Shown piece by piece: positions 2,948 through 40,201 of a stretch of DNA of 40,201 nucleotides. Positions within the stretch are counted from its first letter, which is position 1; every line of letters starts with the position of its first letter. Under the pieces are notes generated by a model. That model saw only the letters and a list, made by a program, of their open reading frames with translations, did no database searches and was not told where the DNA came from. This DNA comes from a virus: IMG/VR virus record IMGVR_UViG_3300042939_000054, positions 1 through 40,201 of that record; one strand, given 5' to 3'. The translations under genes and the position numbers were made by a program.

Positions 2948-3081
2948 TCAGGGTGACTGTGTACGGTGGTGCGAACCCTGAGTTTCACCATTTCGATACT
3001 GACGAGGATGCTTTGACGTGGCTTGTGCGTAACACGAGTGACACGATCCGTGAAATGTCGGTTAGTGTGGTGGCACGATGA
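2944..3081 (+). CDS. Tiny early protein (45 aa)
   Basis: A GTG start sits in GTGA with the preceding stop, and ATGA joins it to the WhiB-like gene that follows. The predicted fold is a strand, a helix (EDALTWLVRNTSDTIREM) and a strand. No motif indicates a function. The double coupling is the main support for it being translated. Confidence 0.6.
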   Translation: MIRVTVYGGANPEFHHFDTDEDALTWLVRNTSDTIREMSVSVVAR

Positions 3082-3311
3082 GGTTTGAGGACGTGAAGTG
3101 GCAGCAAGCAGCGTGTATTGGTACGGATACGGAGTCGTTCTATCCGTCGAATGGTATCCCAATCAAGACTGTTTCTAAGATATGCCAGGATTGCCCCATC
3201 TTGTCTGACTGTGCCGCATATGCCCTAGAACATGAGCGTTACGGCTATTGGGGTGGTATGTCGGAGTATGCCCGGTTCCGTGCGAGAAAGAGGACACGCT
3301 ATGCGGCCTAG
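3078..3311 (+). CDS. WhiB-like iron-sulfur transcription factor
   Basis: The 77-residue protein carries all four cluster cysteines in WhiB spacing: C13, C36, C39 and C45 (C-x22-C-x2-C-x5-C). It also has the preceding W8-x3-AAC, the FYP motif and the G-Y-W-G-G turn (56-60), then a basic C-terminal tail (RFRARKRTRY) for DNA contact. WhiB-like (Wbl) proteins bind a [4Fe-4S] cluster and act with the actinobacterial primary sigma factor. A phage copy most likely retunes host or phage promoters. The Y in place of the usual V or I in the turn is a minor deviation. It overlaps its upstream neighbour by ATGA and the next gene by 11 bases. Confidence 0.93.
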   Translation: MRFEDVKWQQAACIGTDTESFYPSNGIPIKTVSKICQDCPILSDCAAYALEHERYGYWGGMSEYARFRARKRTRYAA

Positions 3312-10356: not shown

Positions 10357-10516
10357 GAAACAACTCCGTCTCCTCAAACTCAATACGTGACAGGCGACGA
10401 CGCCACTTGTACTCGTCCCACTCCGTCACGATCCACACCACGAAAGCAGCAAGCGCCCACCCCGATATCATCGCCCCCAGGATGAGGGCACCTAGCCAGT
10501 AGAAATCAGAACTCAC
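10349..10516 (-). CDS. Small membrane protein (55 aa)
   Basis: GTG at 10516 overlaps the primase stop (GTGA), and the 3' end overlaps the MazG-like gene by 8 bases. A hydrophobic span (YWLGALILGAMISGWALAAF, about 6-25, extending to VVWIV) is followed by a charged cytoplasmic tail (DEYKWRRRLSRIEFEETE). It would be missed by a length filter, but the overlaps on both sides and clear membrane topology support it. Function unknown. Confidence 0.65.
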   Translation of the reverse strand: MSSDFYWLGALILGAMISGWALAAFVVWIVTEWDEYKWRRRLSRIEFEETELFRE

Positions 10517-11130
10517 AACCCAACCCTCTTCCTGATACCGTCTGCCCCTTCTTGGAGGTAGACTTCGTTAGCGTCCAAACCTTCAGGCATCGGCACCACG
10601 ACAGCAACGTCGATAGCCTGCATGATCTTCTTACCCATTTCCCTACCGGCCTGGTCACCGTCCGTCAACACGAACACCTTCCGGTAGTCCGCGAACGCAC
10701 GGGCATACCAGTTCTTCCAACCGTTAGCACCAGGCATACCGACCGCTGGGATACCCACTACCGTGTTCACGATGATCGTGTCCAGTTCACCCTCGCACAC
10801 GCAGATAACATCGGAGTCTTCCTGGAACGCAAGCACGTTGTAGATGTGCTGCTGTGACCCGGCACGGGACAGGTACTTGGGTGAGTCGTCGGGGTGCACG
10901 GAGCGGAAACGAATATCAACAGCACCCGTGGGTGTCAGGTATGGTATTGCGAGTCTGCCTCGCATCTCGTCGTCACCGACCATCGGTTCTTTGACGTAGC
11001 CGAGGTGGTGTGTAAGAGCGGCTTCGCCGTTTATCCCCCGACCTAGAAGATAGTCGGCTATGTCTCCGACCTGACGGAAGTACGCCAGTTCCGCTTCGTC
11101 CAGAGATTTCCTCGCATCTACCGACAGCAT
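10513..11130 (-). CDS. DNA primase, TOPRIM catalytic part
   Basis: TOPRIM motifs are evident: CEGELD (112-117) with the catalytic glutamate, and the DxD motif LTDGDQAG (155-162). Upstream, RGRLAIPYLT and IRFRSV match the linker seen in phage DnaG-like primases. The zinc-binding part is encoded separately in another frame (10973-11356), overlapping this gene by 158 bases if the ATG at 11130 is used; a TTG at 11163 is the only earlier start before an in-frame stop. The protein should synthesise primers with the DnaB-like ATPase encoded nearby. Confidence 0.85.
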   Translation of the reverse strand: MLSVDARKSLDEAELAYFRQVGDIADYLLGRGINGEAALTHHLGYVKEPMVGDDEMRGRLAIPYLTPTGAVDIRFRSVHPDDSPKYLSRAGSQQHIYNVLAFQEDSDVICVCEGELDTIIVNTVVGIPAVGMPGANGWKNWYARAFADYRKVFVLTDGDQAGREMGKKIMQAIDVAVVVPMPEGLDANEVYLQEGADGIRKRVGL

Positions 11131-11356
11131 CCTTGTATCCCATTCCTTCGTAGTGCCGTACAACGTCTATCGCATCGCCCTTGAAGTCGCACGCTAAACA
11201 TTTCACTTTCCCCGCATCATGTGACACACGGCAGGAAGCGTGATGGTCGTCGTGGGCGTGGCATTTGACTGACTGCCAGGTGCCCCTGGGTTGCGGTAGT
11301 TGCCACCCGTAGTGTTCCAGTATGGGCCAAATGTCGAAGCGGGGTTCGTCATCCAC
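10973..11356 (-). CDS. DNA primase, CHC2-type zinc-binding part
   Basis: After FDIWPILEHYGW, a CHC2-like zinc finger is present: VKCHAHDDHHASCRVSHD, then VKCLACDFKGDAIDVV. This is the template-binding module of DnaG-like primases. The GTG at 11356 is chosen because the upstream frame extension overlaps another small gene (11349-11498). Beyond about residue 84 the protein becomes arginine/serine-rich, while the +1 frame encodes the TOPRIM part. Normally both modules lie in one chain or in adjacent genes; the long out-of-frame overlap is unusual. Confidence 0.8.
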   Translation of the reverse strand: MDDEPRFDIWPILEHYGWQLPQPRGTWQSVKCHAHDDHHASCRVSHDAGKVKCLACDFKGDAIDVVRHYEGMGYKDAVGRCEEISGRSGTGVLPSGRRHSRLSSRSGDKRRSRSYTPPRLRQRTDGR

Positions 11357-11498
11357 GACCGGCCAAGTCTCGTAGTGTCTCCATGTTTCCCCACTTGCGG
11401 CCTTCCTCGTAGGATGCGTCGATGGCTTGGTAGATGGGGAAGCCGATGATGCGTGATGCGAGCCAATGCCGGAACTGTAGCCAGCGGTATTCAATCAT
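11349..11498 (-). CDS. Small protein, unknown function (49 aa)
   Basis: The ATG at 11498 overlaps the nuclease stop (ATGA), and the 3' end overlaps the primase zinc-module start by 8 bases. The peptide looks natural: an aromatic N-terminal helix (EYRWLQFRHWLASRIIGF) and a charged end (SYEEGRKWGNMETLRDLAG). It explains why the longer primase frame here is not coding. No family recognised. Confidence 0.6.
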   Translation of the reverse strand: MIEYRWLQFRHWLASRIIGFPIYQAIDASYEEGRKWGNMETLRDLAGRG

Positions 11499-11857: not shown

Positions 11858-12021
11858 CGGACACTCATCTCGGACTCAGCGCATGGTTGGCATAGCCACT
11901 TGCGTTTTTCCCTGGGGGTGAGGAAACTTATTCCAATGATTGTGCCTGCGTGTATGTTTTTCTTGCAGGATGGGCAGGTCTTGTCGCGTTTGGCGTGAGT
12001 GAAATATCCCTGTCTACTCAC
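11854..12021 (-). CDS. Mini zinc-ribbon protein (55 aa)
   Basis: The GTG start overlaps the ATPase stop (GTGA at 12021-12018) and the TGA overlaps the nuclease ATG. Cysteine pairs C16/C19 (CPSC) and C44/C47 (CQPC) with a basic stretch (PREKRKW) form a zinc ribbon likely to bind nucleic acid. It lies in the replication operon, unlike the similar mini ribbons in the early region. Confidence 0.65.
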   Translation of the reverse strand: MSRQGYFTHAKRDKTCPSCKKNIHAGTIIGISFLTPREKRKWLCQPCAESEMSVR

Positions 12022-12800
12022 GAGTCAAGGTCTTTCAGTTGCATGTTCGTCGGAAAATAATCCATCCACAAAGCACTACGACCAGTCGCGTCAGCGGGAC
12101 CGTAACGGTTCTTCACGGCAGCAGCAGCCATCAAACCAGGCTGCTCCGATGAGAGAGTCACAATCAGCGACGGCACCTGGGCGATCTTCCCATGCAACGC
12201 TGCACGCGGAGGACACGGGTTACCATCATATCCCTCACTCGTGTGGTGCAGGATCAGGAACGCTGCACCCGTGTCACGAGCCCACCACTTCACCTCACGC
12301 ATCAGAGAACGCAAACTGGAGAACTCGTCACCCGACTCGTGGGTCACATCCACAGCATTATCAACAATCACCAGGCTGGGGTTGTCACCCATTAGTTCCC
12401 GGTACACGTTGATTTCGTCCTCCAAATCAGCAAGCGTGGGGGACGCATCAAACATCCACCTGATGTGACCGATGGAATCCTTCAAAATGTCACTAGCCCA
12501 CAGCGGGTCAGAAGCCATGCGTTCCTCAACCTCAGCCTGCTGGATACCTGTCACCATTGACAGTGAACGAATAGCCATAGTGGACTCGTGCGAATCAGCA
12601 CTCGCATACAGGGTGGGAACTTTCGCCTTCACCGCTATCGCCAAAGCAGCGGTGGATTTTCCCGCACCGGGTGGGCCAGCAATCATGCTGACCTCACCAC
12701 GGCGAATGGAGATGTTGCCATCGGACCACGACTTGAACGGCATAGGTATGACCATCGCCTCACGGTTGATGGACCTCACTGCACGGTCAAGTGACCTCAC
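12018..12800 (-). CDS. DnaB-like helicase / RecA-fold ATPase
   Basis: Walker A is GPPGAGKST (42-50) and Walker B is LVIVDNAVD (143-151). A third conserved element, FLILHHTSEG (181-190), is typical of DnaB/RadA-type RecA folds. At 260 residues it lacks an N-terminal DnaB domain, like the short replicative-helicase ATPases of many actinobacteriophages. It should unwind DNA ahead of the host polymerase and work with the two-part primase. It starts at a GTG 4 bases after the upstream gene. Confidence 0.82.
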   Translation of the reverse strand: MRSLDRAVRSINREAMVIPMPFKSWSDGNISIRRGEVSMIAGPPGAGKSTAALAIAVKAKVPTLYASADSHESTMAIRSLSMVTGIQQAEVEERMASDPLWASDILKDSIGHIRWMFDASPTLADLEDEINVYRELMGDNPSLVIVDNAVDVTHESGDEFSSLRSLMREVKWWARDTGAAFLILHHTSEGYDGNPCPPRAALHGKIAQVPSLIVTLSSEQPGLMAAAAVKNRYGPADATGRSALWMDYFPTNMQLKDLDS

Positions 12801-12944: not shown

Positions 12945-13345
12945 GCCGGGAACGCATTCCACTCGGGTGTTCCACGGTTGATGAAGATGGCGCTGCACTG
13001 GTCCGCTGTGCCCTTCGGTGTGGGGCAGAACCAGCCACGCCACGGACCCTTGGAACCTGACCCGGTACGGGCAACCATGTCACCGTGCACGCACTGCTTG
13101 ACTGCCGCACTCGTGAACGAGGCAGGTGGTCCCGATGGTGCTGCTGCAGGTGCAGCCACAGCAGCCGCTACCGCACGGGCACCAGCCAACTTCGTTTGCA
13201 CATCGTGAATCGCTGGGATACCGGACTCTTCCAGTTCCCCCAGTAGGTCAACGAACTCGCTCATGGAGTTCGCGTACACGTTGAACAGGTCGTTGCCAAT
13301 CTTGAAATTGGCCTGAACCTTTGTCCCTTCAGGTGATGCAGCCAT
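12941..13345 (-). CDS. Replication-region protein with possible zinc site (134 aa)
   Basis: The N-terminal third (VQANFKIGNDLFNVYANSMSEFVDLLGEL) is alpha/beta. An alanine/proline linker follows (about 58-73). The C-terminal module has C85 in CVHGDM, then WRGWFCPTPKGTADQCSAIF, giving three cysteines and a histidine that could hold zinc. It sits between the helicase-type ATPase and the Cas4-like nuclease. A nucleic-acid-binding accessory role is likely but not shown. Confidence 0.65.
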   Translation of the reverse strand: MAASPEGTKVQANFKIGNDLFNVYANSMSEFVDLLGELEESGIPAIHDVQTKLAGARAVAAAVAAPAAAPSGPPASFTSAAVKQCVHGDMVARTGSGSKGPWRGWFCPTPKGTADQCSAIFINRGTPEWNAFPA

Positions 13346-14016
13346 TATTCTTCTCCAATCAAATCATCCCCGAAATCGGGTTGGTATTCCTTGTGACCGA
13401 AAGCATAGCAGAACTTTTGCACACCACAAGAGGCACACAGGTTCGTCACGTTCGGCACGAAAATCCTAGCGTCAATGCCACGTTTCACGTCCCGCAGCCA
13501 ACGCTGCACCATGTCCAGTGGGTACTGGCGTAGGTCATGCACGGTGTCCAATGTTCCACTGCGTGCCATCCAGTAGGAACCATAGTCGGGTGCCTCACCG
13601 TATTGCGCCTGCAGGGCGAGACGGTACACGGCTAGTTGGAGTGCCGACTTGGGTGGTTGTCCTGTTTTCAGGTCCACGATCATTGTTTGCCCGGTTGCCT
13701 TGTCAACGAATACCCGGTCAATGTATGAACGTAACGTCAGATCACCGGGTAGGTGGATCATAACGCCTAGTTCGATGGCGGGTGTTCCTTGTGGGGTCCG
13801 CCAAATGTCAAGGTTAGGGTTACCTAACCTCCAGTTGTAGTAGTTGTGGACCATTGTTGGTCCCTCGCTCATCCACCACGATTCGTCTTCCTTGTTCGGG
13901 TACTGTTTCGTGGCACGTCCACCTGCACGCCAGGTTTTGCCTTTGTTGGTTTCTTTCGCTTCAGCGATGGATGCCCTGAAGGCGTCCATGCCAGCGTCGT
14001 AGGCCGTATTACTCAT
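13345..14016 (-). CDS. Cas4/RecB-like nuclease, C-terminal half
   Basis: This reading frame holds the metal- and DNA-cutting part of a PD-(D/E)xK nuclease: YIDRVF (D at about 100), MIVDLKTGQ (D115, K117) and LQLAVYRLAL. It ends with three cysteines (C194, C197, C203; CASC and FC) of a Cas4-type 4Fe-4S cluster. The N-terminal part with the first cysteine and the conserved GTAVH motif is encoded separately at 14224-14409, with another gene between. The ATG at 14016 overlaps that gene's stop by 8 bases. A complete family member would be about 290-320 residues in one chain. Confidence 0.8.
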   Translation of the reverse strand: MSNTAYDAGMDAFRASIAEAKETNKGKTWRAGGRATKQYPNKEDESWWMSEGPTMVHNYYNWRLGNPNLDIWRTPQGTPAIELGVMIHLPGDLTLRSYIDRVFVDKATGQTMIVDLKTGQPPKSALQLAVYRLALQAQYGEAPDYGSYWMARSGTLDTVHDLRQYPLDMVQRWLRDVKRGIDARIFVPNVTNLCASCGVQKFCYAFGHKEYQPDFGDDLIGEE

Positions 14017-14227
14017 TGAAAGGATCAATTTGTGCTGAAACAAATGTTAAATAAGTGTCTGATGCAATGTTTTCTTTTGAAGGTTTAATTGTTAGAGAAT
14101 GTGCCGCTAAAGCATCAAGAACATCAACGAGAGTAATGTCCAAAGTTTCAAAGTGATTAGCAATTTTATCTGCGTATTCAAGTAGGTCTAATCCTTCTAG
14201 CCCAAGCATGCCAGCAGGGATAATCAT
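14009..14227 (-). CDS. Small gene inserted between the two Cas4-like halves (72 aa)
   Basis: The ATG at 14227 overlaps the N-terminal half's stop (ATGA), and its own stop overlaps the C-terminal half's start. The 72-residue product (helical, e.g. LDLLEYADKIANHFETLDI, VDVLDALAAHSL) shows no Cas4 feature and no homing-endonuclease motif. Its DNA is visibly more AT-rich than its neighbours, suggesting recent acquisition. Function unknown; it may be an accessory subunit, an inhibitor or passenger DNA. Confidence 0.65.
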   Translation of the reverse strand: MIIPAGMLGLEGLDLLEYADKIANHFETLDITLVDVLDALAAHSLTIKPSKENIASDTYLTFVSAQIDPFNE

Positions 14228-14409
14228 TTCGCCTCCAATAGTGCGTGGTCGATGGCGTCAGCAGCGGAGTGCACAGCGGTGCCCCCACTGAAGTACCAGG
14301 CGGGGTCTTCTTCCACCCCAACGATCCTGGTGAGACGGTACTTCTCCCCGCACTGCAGCCACGTCGTGAACTGGGAGTGCGAGATGTACGGTTTGGTGTT
14401 TTCTTCCAT
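14224..14409 (-). CDS. Cas4/RecB-like nuclease, N-terminal half
   Basis: The 61-residue product starts at ATG 14409, six bases after a -10-like element, without a ribosome-binding site. It contains YISHSQFTTWLQCGEKYRL, with C20 as the first iron-sulfur ligand, and FSGGTAVHSAADAIDHAL, with H47 the conserved active-site histidine of RecB/Cas4 nucleases. It stops abruptly at LLEAK where single-chain relatives continue. With the half at 13345-14016 it could rebuild one active site from two chains. Confidence 0.75.
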   Translation of the reverse strand: MEENTKPYISHSQFTTWLQCGEKYRLTRIVGVEEDPAWYFSGGTAVHSAADAIDHALLEAK

Positions 14410-14415
14410 GGAGGG

Positions 14416-14454
14416 ATTGTGGCGTGTCGCGGGTTGCGTTGTCAACCGACACGC
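14416..14454 (-). promoter_or_regulatory. Promoter of the replication operon with overlapping inverted repeat
   Basis: On the minus strand TTGACA (14445-14440) and CACAAT (14421-14416) are 18 bases apart. The ATG of the first gene begins six bases after the -10 element, so transcripts would have little or no leader. An inverted repeat GCGTGTCG (14422-14429) / CGACACGC (14447-14454) flanks the -35 box and covers the spacer, a natural repressor site. Confidence 0.55.
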
Positions 14455-14678
14455 TGTAGGTTTGTGGGGCGCGTAAGCGTGGGGCAGAAACTCCATGACG
14501 GGCGACGGCACATGCCTGACTCCTGAAGGGGATGCTCCCTCTACCCACCCGGGCTCCGGTTTCTTGGGGGGGTAGGGGGGGCATTTCTCTTTCTGGGTTC
14601 CGGCAGGGAGCGAGGCTAATGCCGAGCGACCTAGTAGGGTTTTGGGTGGGGTTTAGGGTTATATGTTTTTAGGGATTT
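14455..14678. other. Intergenic stretch without a visible gene
   Basis: Between the replication promoter and the late terminator there is no open frame with gene-like start context on either strand. It contains long G runs (around 14570-14580) and AT-rich sequence near 14655-14680. No conserved RNA is recognised. Confidence 0.5.
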
Positions 14679-37660: not shown

Positions 37661-39673
37661 CTATGCTCCGATGGGGTTCCATGCCCCCGCCGCTTCTGCT
37701 TCTAGGAGGCTCACCGTGCGTTGCTGTCCCTTATCCCACTGGGTGAGGAACGGGTTGTTGACGTGGGTGCGTGTGTAGTTAGATGCCATCATCACCCTGT
37801 CCCGTGCCGCAAGTTCAGCAAACCACAAAGCCATCACAATGTCAGTCTTCTGGTTCTTCGGGGCGTCAGGGTGCCACGTCACAAGTTGCTCCACAAGTGA
37901 CTTAGCGGCCTCGTTACCGTGCGTAGACGGCAACTCAATCAACTGCTGCTTATCCTGCCAGCCATTAAACAAAGTCGTCATAGATGCGACACCGAAATCG
38001 GCGTCATGCTTATTCGCCCCAGTGAAGTGTGGGCGGATCACTGTGCCACGGGCCGAACAGAACTCGTTAATCTCACGGTCATGCACCAGGAAGCCCTGGA
38101 AGCCGTTCCGTTCGATACGCCACTCAATGATCTTGTACCGTTCCGTCCACGAGCGGATCATTTCCCGCATCGCCTCAGGACTGATACTGGCTTTGTTGTA
38201 CACGTCCAGGATGTAGCGTTTCTGGTTCTGAATATCCAGGCCCATTACCACGGCAGCGGTGTGGCCTGAGGTTGCCGGGTCAAGTCCCGCGAGAATAATC
38301 AAACCATCCATGCCAGCGGGGCGGCAGTTCACCATGCCCTTAGGTATCGGTCCAGTCATCCTGTTACCGTTAATGGCGGTACGGACAGCCTCGGGGTGGA
38401 ATACGGCGTCGTCGGCGACTTGCTGCTGCTGGTACACCATCGCCCACGCGCGAGGCGACACACGCCTACGCTTCTGCGAAAGCCTAGTGCCATCCCACTT
38501 CGGGAACAAACCATCACTGTCTGGTTCCTGGTCGCGGACACCAGCCTCAGGCTGATTCGACCTGGGCCACAACGTCACCCAGTCCTTAGGTTCCTCATGG
38601 AACTCCAGCACAGCGGGCATCGACAGGTATGACCACGGTGACACCTCATCAGGATACCTGTGCGGGTCACGCAGTTCCGAATACAAATCCTTGGACGCCA
38701 GCCGGGTGCCCACCACCAGCATAGAACCATTAGCGGACACGCGGGAGATAACCTCAGACTGCAGCCAGTCAATCTGCTTCTCGTACTCGTGGGCGTTCGT
38801 CAAGTCCACAGTGTCGTCCAGGATGATCAGGTCGGCGCGGGCACCATAAATATGCCCACGGATACCCAGAGCCTGAACCGTGGGGTCCTTCTCACCCGAG
38901 TCACGGGCGTCATCAGACACGTAGATCATGTTCTGATTCCACGCCTCAGCGTTCTTATCGAACCCACCAGCCGGGGCATACGCCGTGATCATGTCATCAA
39001 ACTTAGGATGAGTCAGCCTGGTCTTGATGGCGTACAGCATCTTCTTCGCCATCTCAGCCGTCTTAGACACCACGATCACCCGAATGTTCGGGTCCATACA
39101 GATACGGTACGTCACATAGTTGATCGTGATAGAAGTCGTCTTAGAATGCTCGGGGGGCATGTTCACCATGACCAGGTCACGCTCACCCTGCTCAAACACC
39201 ATCGACGGGTGCGACCAGGACGGCTCACGGCCCTCCAGAAGGTCCACCACATTCAACATGTGCGGAAACACTCGGGCACCCAGGAACCGTTCCGAGAACT
39301 CAGGGAACGGCATCCACTCCCGCTCACGCGGGCCACTCAACTTCTCAAACGAACGGATACGCTCCACGGCAGTTAGGAAGTCGGGGTCATCCCGACGCCA
39401 CCGCTCATACGTGGAACGGTTACGGCCAACCACCTCTAGGGCCTGGTTGATGTTCATGCCCTGCTGGAAGCGGCGCAGAAACTCCTGCTTTACCGCGTCA
39501 ATGTCTTGCTTCGGCTTACGGCCAGCCCTAGCAGCCACGGCACCACCAATCAGAGAAAAAGCCACGGGGTTAATACCGAGGCCAACCGCAGGAAGAGGCC
39601 GAGGTAGTAGAGGGGGAGGAGGGACCGTACCATGAGGGGAGGTCCCGACGACCCCCCACCTTGTTATAGCCAC
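37661..39673 (-). CDS. Terminase large subunit
   Basis: ATPase motifs: a Walker A variant NMPPEHSKTTS (171-181) and Walker B DLIILDDTVD (281-290). The nuclease begins at LAGLDPATSGH (459-469; D463) with further acidic residues downstream. Residues about 58-100 form a helix-turn-helix (NINQALEVVGRNRSTYERWRRDDPDF) like a small terminase, and no separate small-subunit gene is visible. The annotated GTG start has no ribosome-binding site and lies at the edge of an inverted repeat; in-frame GTG codons at residues 37 and 46 are alternatives. Confidence 0.9.
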   Translation of the reverse strand: MAITRWGVVGTSPHGTVPPPPLLPRPLPAVGLGINPVAFSLIGGAVAARAGRKPKQDIDAVKQEFLRRFQQGMNINQALEVVGRNRSTYERWRRDDPDFLTAVERIRSFEKLSGPREREWMPFPEFSERFLGARVFPHMLNVVDLLEGREPSWSHPSMVFEQGERDLVMVNMPPEHSKTTSITINYVTYRICMDPNIRVIVVSKTAEMAKKMLYAIKTRLTHPKFDDMITAYAPAGGFDKNAEAWNQNMIYVSDDARDSGEKDPTVQALGIRGHIYGARADLIILDDTVDLTNAHEYEKQIDWLQSEVISRVSANGSMLVVGTRLASKDLYSELRDPHRYPDEVSPWSYLSMPAVLEFHEEPKDWVTLWPRSNQPEAGVRDQEPDSDGLFPKWDGTRLSQKRRRVSPRAWAMVYQQQQVADDAVFHPEAVRTAINGNRMTGPIPKGMVNCRPAGMDGLIILAGLDPATSGHTAAVVMGLDIQNQKRYILDVYNKASISPEAMREMIRSWTERYKIIEWRIERNGFQGFLVHDREINEFCSARGTVIRPHFTGANKHDADFGVASMTTLFNGWQDKQQLIELPSTHGNEAAKSLVEQLVTWHPDAPKNQKTDIVMALWFAELAARDRVMMASNYTRTHVNNPFLTQWDKGQQRTVSLLEAEAAGAWNPIGA

Positions 39674-39745: not shown

Positions 39746-39773
39746 GGGGGTTCGTAGGCTGTGAAGAACCCCC
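39746..39773. terminator. 8-bp hairpin next to AT-rich tract
   Basis: GGGGGTTC (39746-39753) pairs perfectly with GAACCCCC (39766-39773). On the plus strand, TACTATATATATCC follows, so a plus-strand terminator is possible. Confidence 0.5.
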
Positions 39774-39775
39774 TA

Positions 39776-39960
39776 CTATATATATCCTCGTTTTCTCTAA
39801 CTTTTCGGACACCAAAATCAGAAAGTTCATCAAATCGTTACAATTAAACCACAACAAACCAGGACAAAAACGGACAACTTTCAACAAGAGAATCACAATA
39901 TCACACACAACCAAAAAGGGTATATATATAGTAAGATAAACGTCAAAAGTTAAAAAGGAG
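39776..39960. other. AT-rich tract, probable DNA-unwinding element
   Basis: About 180 bases of A/T-rich sequence, including TATATATATA near 39920-39930 and several A-runs, lie immediately beside the DnaA-box array. No gene is visible. Next to DnaA boxes such a tract is the expected melting site of a replication origin. Confidence 0.6.
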
Positions 39961-39968
39961 GGGTCAAG

Positions 39969-40021
39969 TTATACACAGGTTATCCACAGGTTTTCCACAA
40001 GATATCCACAAGTTATCCACA
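39969..40021 (+). repeat. Five tandem DnaA boxes at 11-bp period
   Basis: The repeat unit is 9 bases plus a 2-base spacer (GG, GG, AG, AG). One unit per helical turn would place all boxes on the same face of the DNA. Confidence 0.88.
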
Positions 40022-40143
40022 CCCCACCACCATACCCCGGGGGGTATCCACATAATTTGTTCGATCCCACAACAAATAAGGGAATATGGCCGAAGGCAGA
40101 CTAGGCAGGGAGATGGCGGGGGTTGTCCACAGCCTGTGGATAT
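39969..40143 (+). other. Probable replication origin with eight DnaA boxes
   Basis: Five boxes in the same direction start at 39969 (TTATACACA), 39980 (TTATCCACA), 39991 (TTTTCCACA), 40002 (ATATCCACA) and 40013 (TTATCCACA), spaced by exactly 11 bases. A sixth is at 40044 (GTATCCACA). An inverted pair follows: TTGTCCACA (40123-40131) and TGTGGATAT (40135-40143). The bacterial DnaA consensus is TTATNCACA, and TTGTCCACA is the usual actinobacterial form. Together with the flanking AT-rich tract this forms an oriC-like arrangement that host DnaA could open. Confidence 0.82.
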
Positions 40144-40172: not shown

Positions 40173-40201
40173 TTGACAGGATCAGTCACACCTGTCATGA
40201 T
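40173..40201 (+). promoter_or_regulatory. Rightward promoter with inverted repeat at the window edge
   Basis: TTGACA (40173-40178) and CATGAT (40196-40201) are 17 bases apart. TGACAGG (40174-40180) and CCTGTCA (40191-40197) form a perfect inverted repeat across them, a likely operator. If the end joins base 1, transcription would begin a few bases into the leader of the first early gene. Confidence 0.55.

Follow-up and report, generated by a model that had tools for sequence, protein, structure and literature searches.

The end of one IMG/VR virus record carries a regular array of DnaA boxes, which raises the question of what such sites do in a phage genome. The initial annotation had proposed that the phage recruits host DnaA to serve its replication origin. 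The window analysed here is the whole record (IMGVR_UViG_3300042939_000054, 40,201 bp), in which no end repeats are present. As judged from its sequence, the record holds the near-complete genome of a lytic actinophage that is a distant relative of the Beephvirinae. The early genes begin at the left end of the record and are read rightward (+); the late genes begin at its right end and are read leftward (-). The sequences of two relatives, L005 and L007, continue across the end-to-start junction of the window. Therefore, the record should be close to complete, and the array lies in the intergenic gap from which the two sets of genes diverge. Identity to the Streptomyces Beephvirinae Manuel and FlowerPower is ~47% for TerL, ~41% for the portal, ~51% for the major capsid protein and ~38% for the DnaB-like helicase, and these low values suggest a related but distinct lineage. 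The phage carries a WhiB-family gene, which indicates an actinobacterial host. No TerL relative was found in the bacterial genome contigs searched for host assignment, and tRNA and Rfam searches of the window gave no matches. The coordinates of the features are collected in Table 1.

Table 1. Positions of the features discussed, in the window unless another sequence is named.
Feature	Position	Strand	Remarks
WhiB-family regulator	3078..3311	+	PF02467, 6.9e-15
Primase, two overlapping frames	10513..11494	-	zinc-finger part 10973-11494, Toprim part 10513-11163
DnaB-like helicase	12018..12800	-	RecA-fold part only, 260 aa
TerL (terminase large subunit), first late gene, leftward	37661..39673	-	phrog_38, 1.4e-62; 47% to Beephvirinae
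AT-rich tract	39771..39968		62-72% AT in 60-bp windows over 39771-39980; candidate unwinding and/or late promoter region
Predicted direct terminal repeat holding the array	~39926..~40101		inner edge approximate; homology to Manuel, FlowerPower, ZooBear and Stella termini
TGACCC element	39961..39966	-	invariant in aligned relatives
Five head-to-tail DnaA boxes, 11-bp period	39969..40021	+	9-bp boxes, 2-bp linkers; 39969 TTATACACA, 39980 TTATCCACA, 39991 TTTTCCACA, 40002 ATATCCACA, 40013 TTATCCACA (all +)
Sixth DnaA box	40044..40052	+	GTATCCACA; off the 11-bp phase
CTAGTCTGCC element	40095..40104	-	invariant in 7 aligned close relatives; predicted outer terminal-repeat edge (homology)
Inverted pair of DnaA boxes	40123..40143	both	TTGTCCACA-gcc-TGTGGATAT; members 40123 TTGTCCACA (+) and 40135 ATATCCACA (-); ~30 bp upstream of early promoter-like -35
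Early promoter-like site	40173..40201	+	TTGACA-17-CATGAT, TG before -10; points across the junction into the rightward early genes
DtxR/IdeR iron box of L007	L007:7074-7092

Boxes were called throughout the 40,201-bp window at no more than one mismatch from TTATCCACA. The five direct-repeat boxes at an exact 11-bp period, the sixth box and the inverted pair described in the initial annotation are all present and correctly placed (start-to-start distances in the array 11, 11, 11 and 11). Chance as the origin of the array was ruled out by shuffles and by permutation of the consensus. Shuffling predicts 8.4 ± 3.1 boxes for the window; there are 18, of which 8 fall within the 175 bp from 39969 to 40143. 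In 150 dinucleotide shuffles, no chain at 11-bp spacing was longer than 1 (5 in the window), and no 175-bp stretch contained more than 2 boxes (8 in the window). None of 300 random permutations of the consensus letters gave more than 3, except redraws of TTATCCACA itself. The boxes are thus clustered beyond chance, as expected of an oriC-type site. All five array boxes fit WTWTNCACA and variation is confined to positions 1, 3 and 5. For this reason, and because the candidate phage binders (HTH protein, TerL and replication proteins) are 66-87% conserved in relatives that lack the array, host DnaA is most likely the ligand of the boxes.

The array sits at the record end, upstream of the terminase gene and between the divergent early and late operons. 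In an alignment of this region (the window and six near relatives), it fills a variable stretch between the CTAGTCTGCC and TGACCC elements. Manuel, FlowerPower, ZooBear and Stella resemble the window in gene order, in a repeat region upstream of the terminase gene and in these boundary elements. Their annotated direct terminal repeats measure 253-276 bp; Abafar differs, with a terminal repeat of 396 bp. In the first four phages, the outer edge of the repeat falls between A and GTCCC (after TACA in three phages, after GACA in ZooBear), and a GACCC or TACCC element precedes the inner edge by ~40 bp. Because the boundary elements of the window are homologous to these annotated termini, the array is predicted to lie inside a terminal repeat, with the inverted pair just outside it. 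DNA beyond CTAGTCTGCC is replaced even between near-identical phages; in L002 and L011 the array sequence is nearly unchanged, while the DNA just outside CTAGTCTGCC has been exchanged. The AT-rich tract is flanked by an inverted repeat with TATATATA-bearing arms (39774-39794 and 39913-39933), and the TATATATA motifs are conserved in relatives.

The replication module of the phage comprises the DnaB-like helicase, the primase, a RusA-like nuclease and a Cas4-like exonuclease. The exonuclease is spread over at least two frames (window 13345-14511; N-terminal part 14224-14511, C-terminal part 13345-14043). Manuel shows the same overlap of two primase genes, and a programmed frameshift is possible in window 10513-11494. 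The proteins scanned gave no match to a family of initiators, loaders or DNA polymerases; several small ORFs had no family match. The phage apparently depends on the replisome of its host, and origin support is therefore the most probable single role of the array. Our tentative preference, held at somewhat less than even confidence, is that the array offers host DnaA a platform where the genome ends meet and acts as an accessory booster of a junction origin. After the genome ends have joined, host DnaA would assemble cooperatively on the in-phase boxes beside the AT-rich tract and might help to open the DNA. The host replisome, together with the phage DnaB-like helicase and primase, could then start replication outward along both operons. 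Since the site lies where early (+) and late (-) genes diverge, forks leaving the array would run with transcription on both arms. Origin support is partly borne out by an array beyond chance, by the lack of a detected initiator or DNA polymerase, and by the skew minimum and AT-rich tract at this place.

Bacterial origins such as E. coli oriC contain head-to-tail DnaA boxes with 2-bp linkers. The array resembles them in its 9-bp boxes, its 11-bp period and the neighbouring AT-rich tract. Unlike oriC, it is borne by a phage, is not linked to dnaA and is dispensable in close relatives, in which the AT-rich tract is kept without the boxes. The origins of P1, pSC101 and RK2 also use host DnaA, through few DnaA boxes and a dedicated replicon initiator. 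The window shares the host DnaA boxes with these replicons; unlike them, it has no initiator that we could find.

Comparison with close relatives limits how much of an origin the array can be. L002 and L011, with TerL essentially identical to that of the window, keep the array at the same spacing (5 and 4 boxes, respectively) without the inverted pair and the sixth box. A shifted or altered array accompanies the pair in L005, L006 and L012. The initial annotation had held that loss of the array from relatives with conserved replication genes would refute its proposal, and such relatives exist. L007, L008 and L009 have the inverted pair but no array, and the replication proteins of L007 and L008 (helicase, primase, RusA-like nuclease and Cas4-like exonuclease) are 66-87% identical to those of the window. 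The pair also occurs elsewhere near TerL in L021, L023, L025, L028, L029, L034-L036, L038 and L039. The Streptomyces phages compared, including the Beephvirinae with their otherwise similar termini, lack a DnaA-box array. The array is lineage-specific, and close relatives run without it. On these comparative data, it is probably an accessory at most and not an essential origin.

The cumulative GC-skew has its minimum at 40073, close to the array, as would suit an origin. However, the full-length, array-less L007 has its minimum in the same intergenic region, so that the skew is no evidence for the array. The minimum coincides with the gene-strand switch and may reflect transcription; the skew of Manuel and FlowerPower also switches at the genome ends. 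The AT-rich tract is equally kept in relatives without the array. Thus, neither the skew minimum nor the tract depends on the array.

Phased arrays of this kind are not unique to the window; unrelated phages have them at their genome ends as well, among them T7-like phages with their own replisome. Triple boxes at an 11-bp period are common in IMG/VR, with at least 120 stretches, although some of the array contigs could be host DNA. With the core TNTNCACA, five boxes were found in 38 IMG/VR stretches, although not every one makes a good DnaA box. Some arrays adjoin a terminase gene (L188, L153, L212 and L210) and others a recombination gene (L194, L208 and L189). The T7-like phages A7 (Berlinvirus, MK685668; L164:22-147) and phiEap-1 (Eapunavirus, KT321314; L176:71-174) hold 8 boxes in a 177-bp and 5 perfect boxes in a 195-bp terminal repeat, respectively. 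Their boxes are of the TTATCCACA type, many 11-12 or 21-23 bp apart, and lie next to the terminase gene within a short direct terminal repeat, as is predicted for the window. The array of the window lies between the terminase gene and the early region, where a terminal-repeat array of the A7/phiEap-1 type would be expected. The T7-like genomes differ in carrying genes for an RNA polymerase, a DNA polymerase and a primase-helicase of their own. Arrays in terminal repeats of phages that need no host initiation argue against origin support. The claim that host DnaA is recruited for an origin therefore stands as regards the likely ligand and the presence of a skew minimum, and is weakened by the array-less L007-L009 and by T7-like arrays that need no DnaA-driven origin.

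P483, nasanit and NJ2 have an array in the interval from the terminase gene to the early region. In Arthrobacter phages, arrays occupy the last ~100 bp of the record, and in T5-like phages they lie between divergent genes of the pre-early region. ValentiniPuff, AM1 and cyanophages carry them away from the ends. These arrays were retrieved through their resemblance to an ideal array and are no unbiased census, so that the preference for genome ends should be taken as a lead and not as a rate. The microvirus MZ089777 (Microviridae, small ssDNA phage) has a perfect tandem TTTTCCACAGG array at 1954-1997, which is intergenic, and similar arrays occur in other Microviridae. T5 has its own replication proteins and a two-step DNA transfer, and belongs to a phage group and host unrelated to those of the window phage. 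Its pre-early, terminally repeated, divergent intergenic region resembles the locus of the window in holding DnaA boxes, which have been described in the T5 injection stop signal (PMC13250531). Such T5 features are thought to form structures or to interact with host components (PMC13250531). On DnaA boxes of actinophages or of terminal repeats, literature searches yielded nothing beyond this T5 statement and predicted origins.

These arrays at ends bear on a role tied to the ends themselves, in which DnaA bound in the terminal repeat would act in DNA entry or in duplication or processing of the repeat, and not in an oriC-like start. The predicted position of the array inside the repeat, its counterparts in the A7 and phiEap-1 repeats, at Arthrobacter record ends and in the T5-like pre-early region, and the T5 stop signal all speak for it. 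We consider it rather unlikely, yet a serious rival. Against it, the terminal repeat of the window is predicted and absent from the record, and other phages carry arrays away from their ends. DnaA might instead act as a transcription regulator, with the pair and the array controlling the divergent early and late promoters according to the growth state of the host, and with replication elsewhere or free of DnaA. The position of the inverted pair relative to the promoter-like site fits such control, and, by eye, similar hexamers stand in the same place in L005 and L011; pair and hexamers recur together in L005 and also in L007, where the -10 is different. On its own, the promoter match is weak and within chance (1 found against 0.8 expected), L002 and L011 keep the array without the pair, and five in-phase boxes exceed the usual need of a promoter operator. 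Control by a host regulator gains from what array-less relatives carry in the array slot upstream of TerL, namely near-perfect matches to the iron-box consensus of another host regulator, DtxR/IdeR. Eight relatives (L007, L021, L024, L026, L027, L030, L031 and L032) have such a box with 1 mismatch in 19, against a shuffle rate of 0.01 per kb at five mismatches. The exact iron-box pattern occurs in 13 stretches of the viral collection (viral_contigs), 5 of which adjoin a relative of the window TerL. On balance, we regard the regulatory role as rather unlikely, yet likewise a serious rival. From the sequence comparisons, different host regulators, DnaA or DtxR/IdeR, seem to have their sites in this slot. 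It is tempting to speculate, if with considerable doubt, that phased arrays have arisen convergently at the ends of unrelated phage genomes (in terminal repeats, at genome ends and in pre-early DNA), also in phages with their own replisome, and that they have an end-specific function (terminal-repeat duplication, DNA entry or host control in the first minutes), and that the actinophage slot is refilled by either kind of site.

Titration of host DnaA is improbable. Multiplying phage genomes could soak up DnaA and shut down host initiation, and the high density of boxes, present twice per virion genome if the array indeed lies inside the repeat, would suit such a decoy. However, each genome copy offers only six to eight sites, and the position at the junction is left unexplained. 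Least probable of all is that the boxes only look like DnaA sites and serve a phage protein as iterons or for packaging. The position on the terminase side and at the predicted packaging ends would suit this, but array-less relatives keep the same TerL (86-87% identical), the HTH protein (84%) and the replication proteins, and the exact DnaA consensus is also present in unrelated phages, whose terminases are unrelated as well. A phage-specific iteron was rejected since the candidate phage binders are conserved in the array-less relatives.

A junction platform for host DnaA remains our preferred reading. If host DnaA loads here, the start of phage replication or the early programme would be tied to the replication clock of the host, and the array would offer a clean substrate for DnaA filament assembly outside oriC. 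Since such arrays turn up again at the genome ends of unrelated phages, including some that can do without host initiation, the long-noted and unexplained DnaA boxes of the T5 injection stop signal become part of a general question that can be tested.
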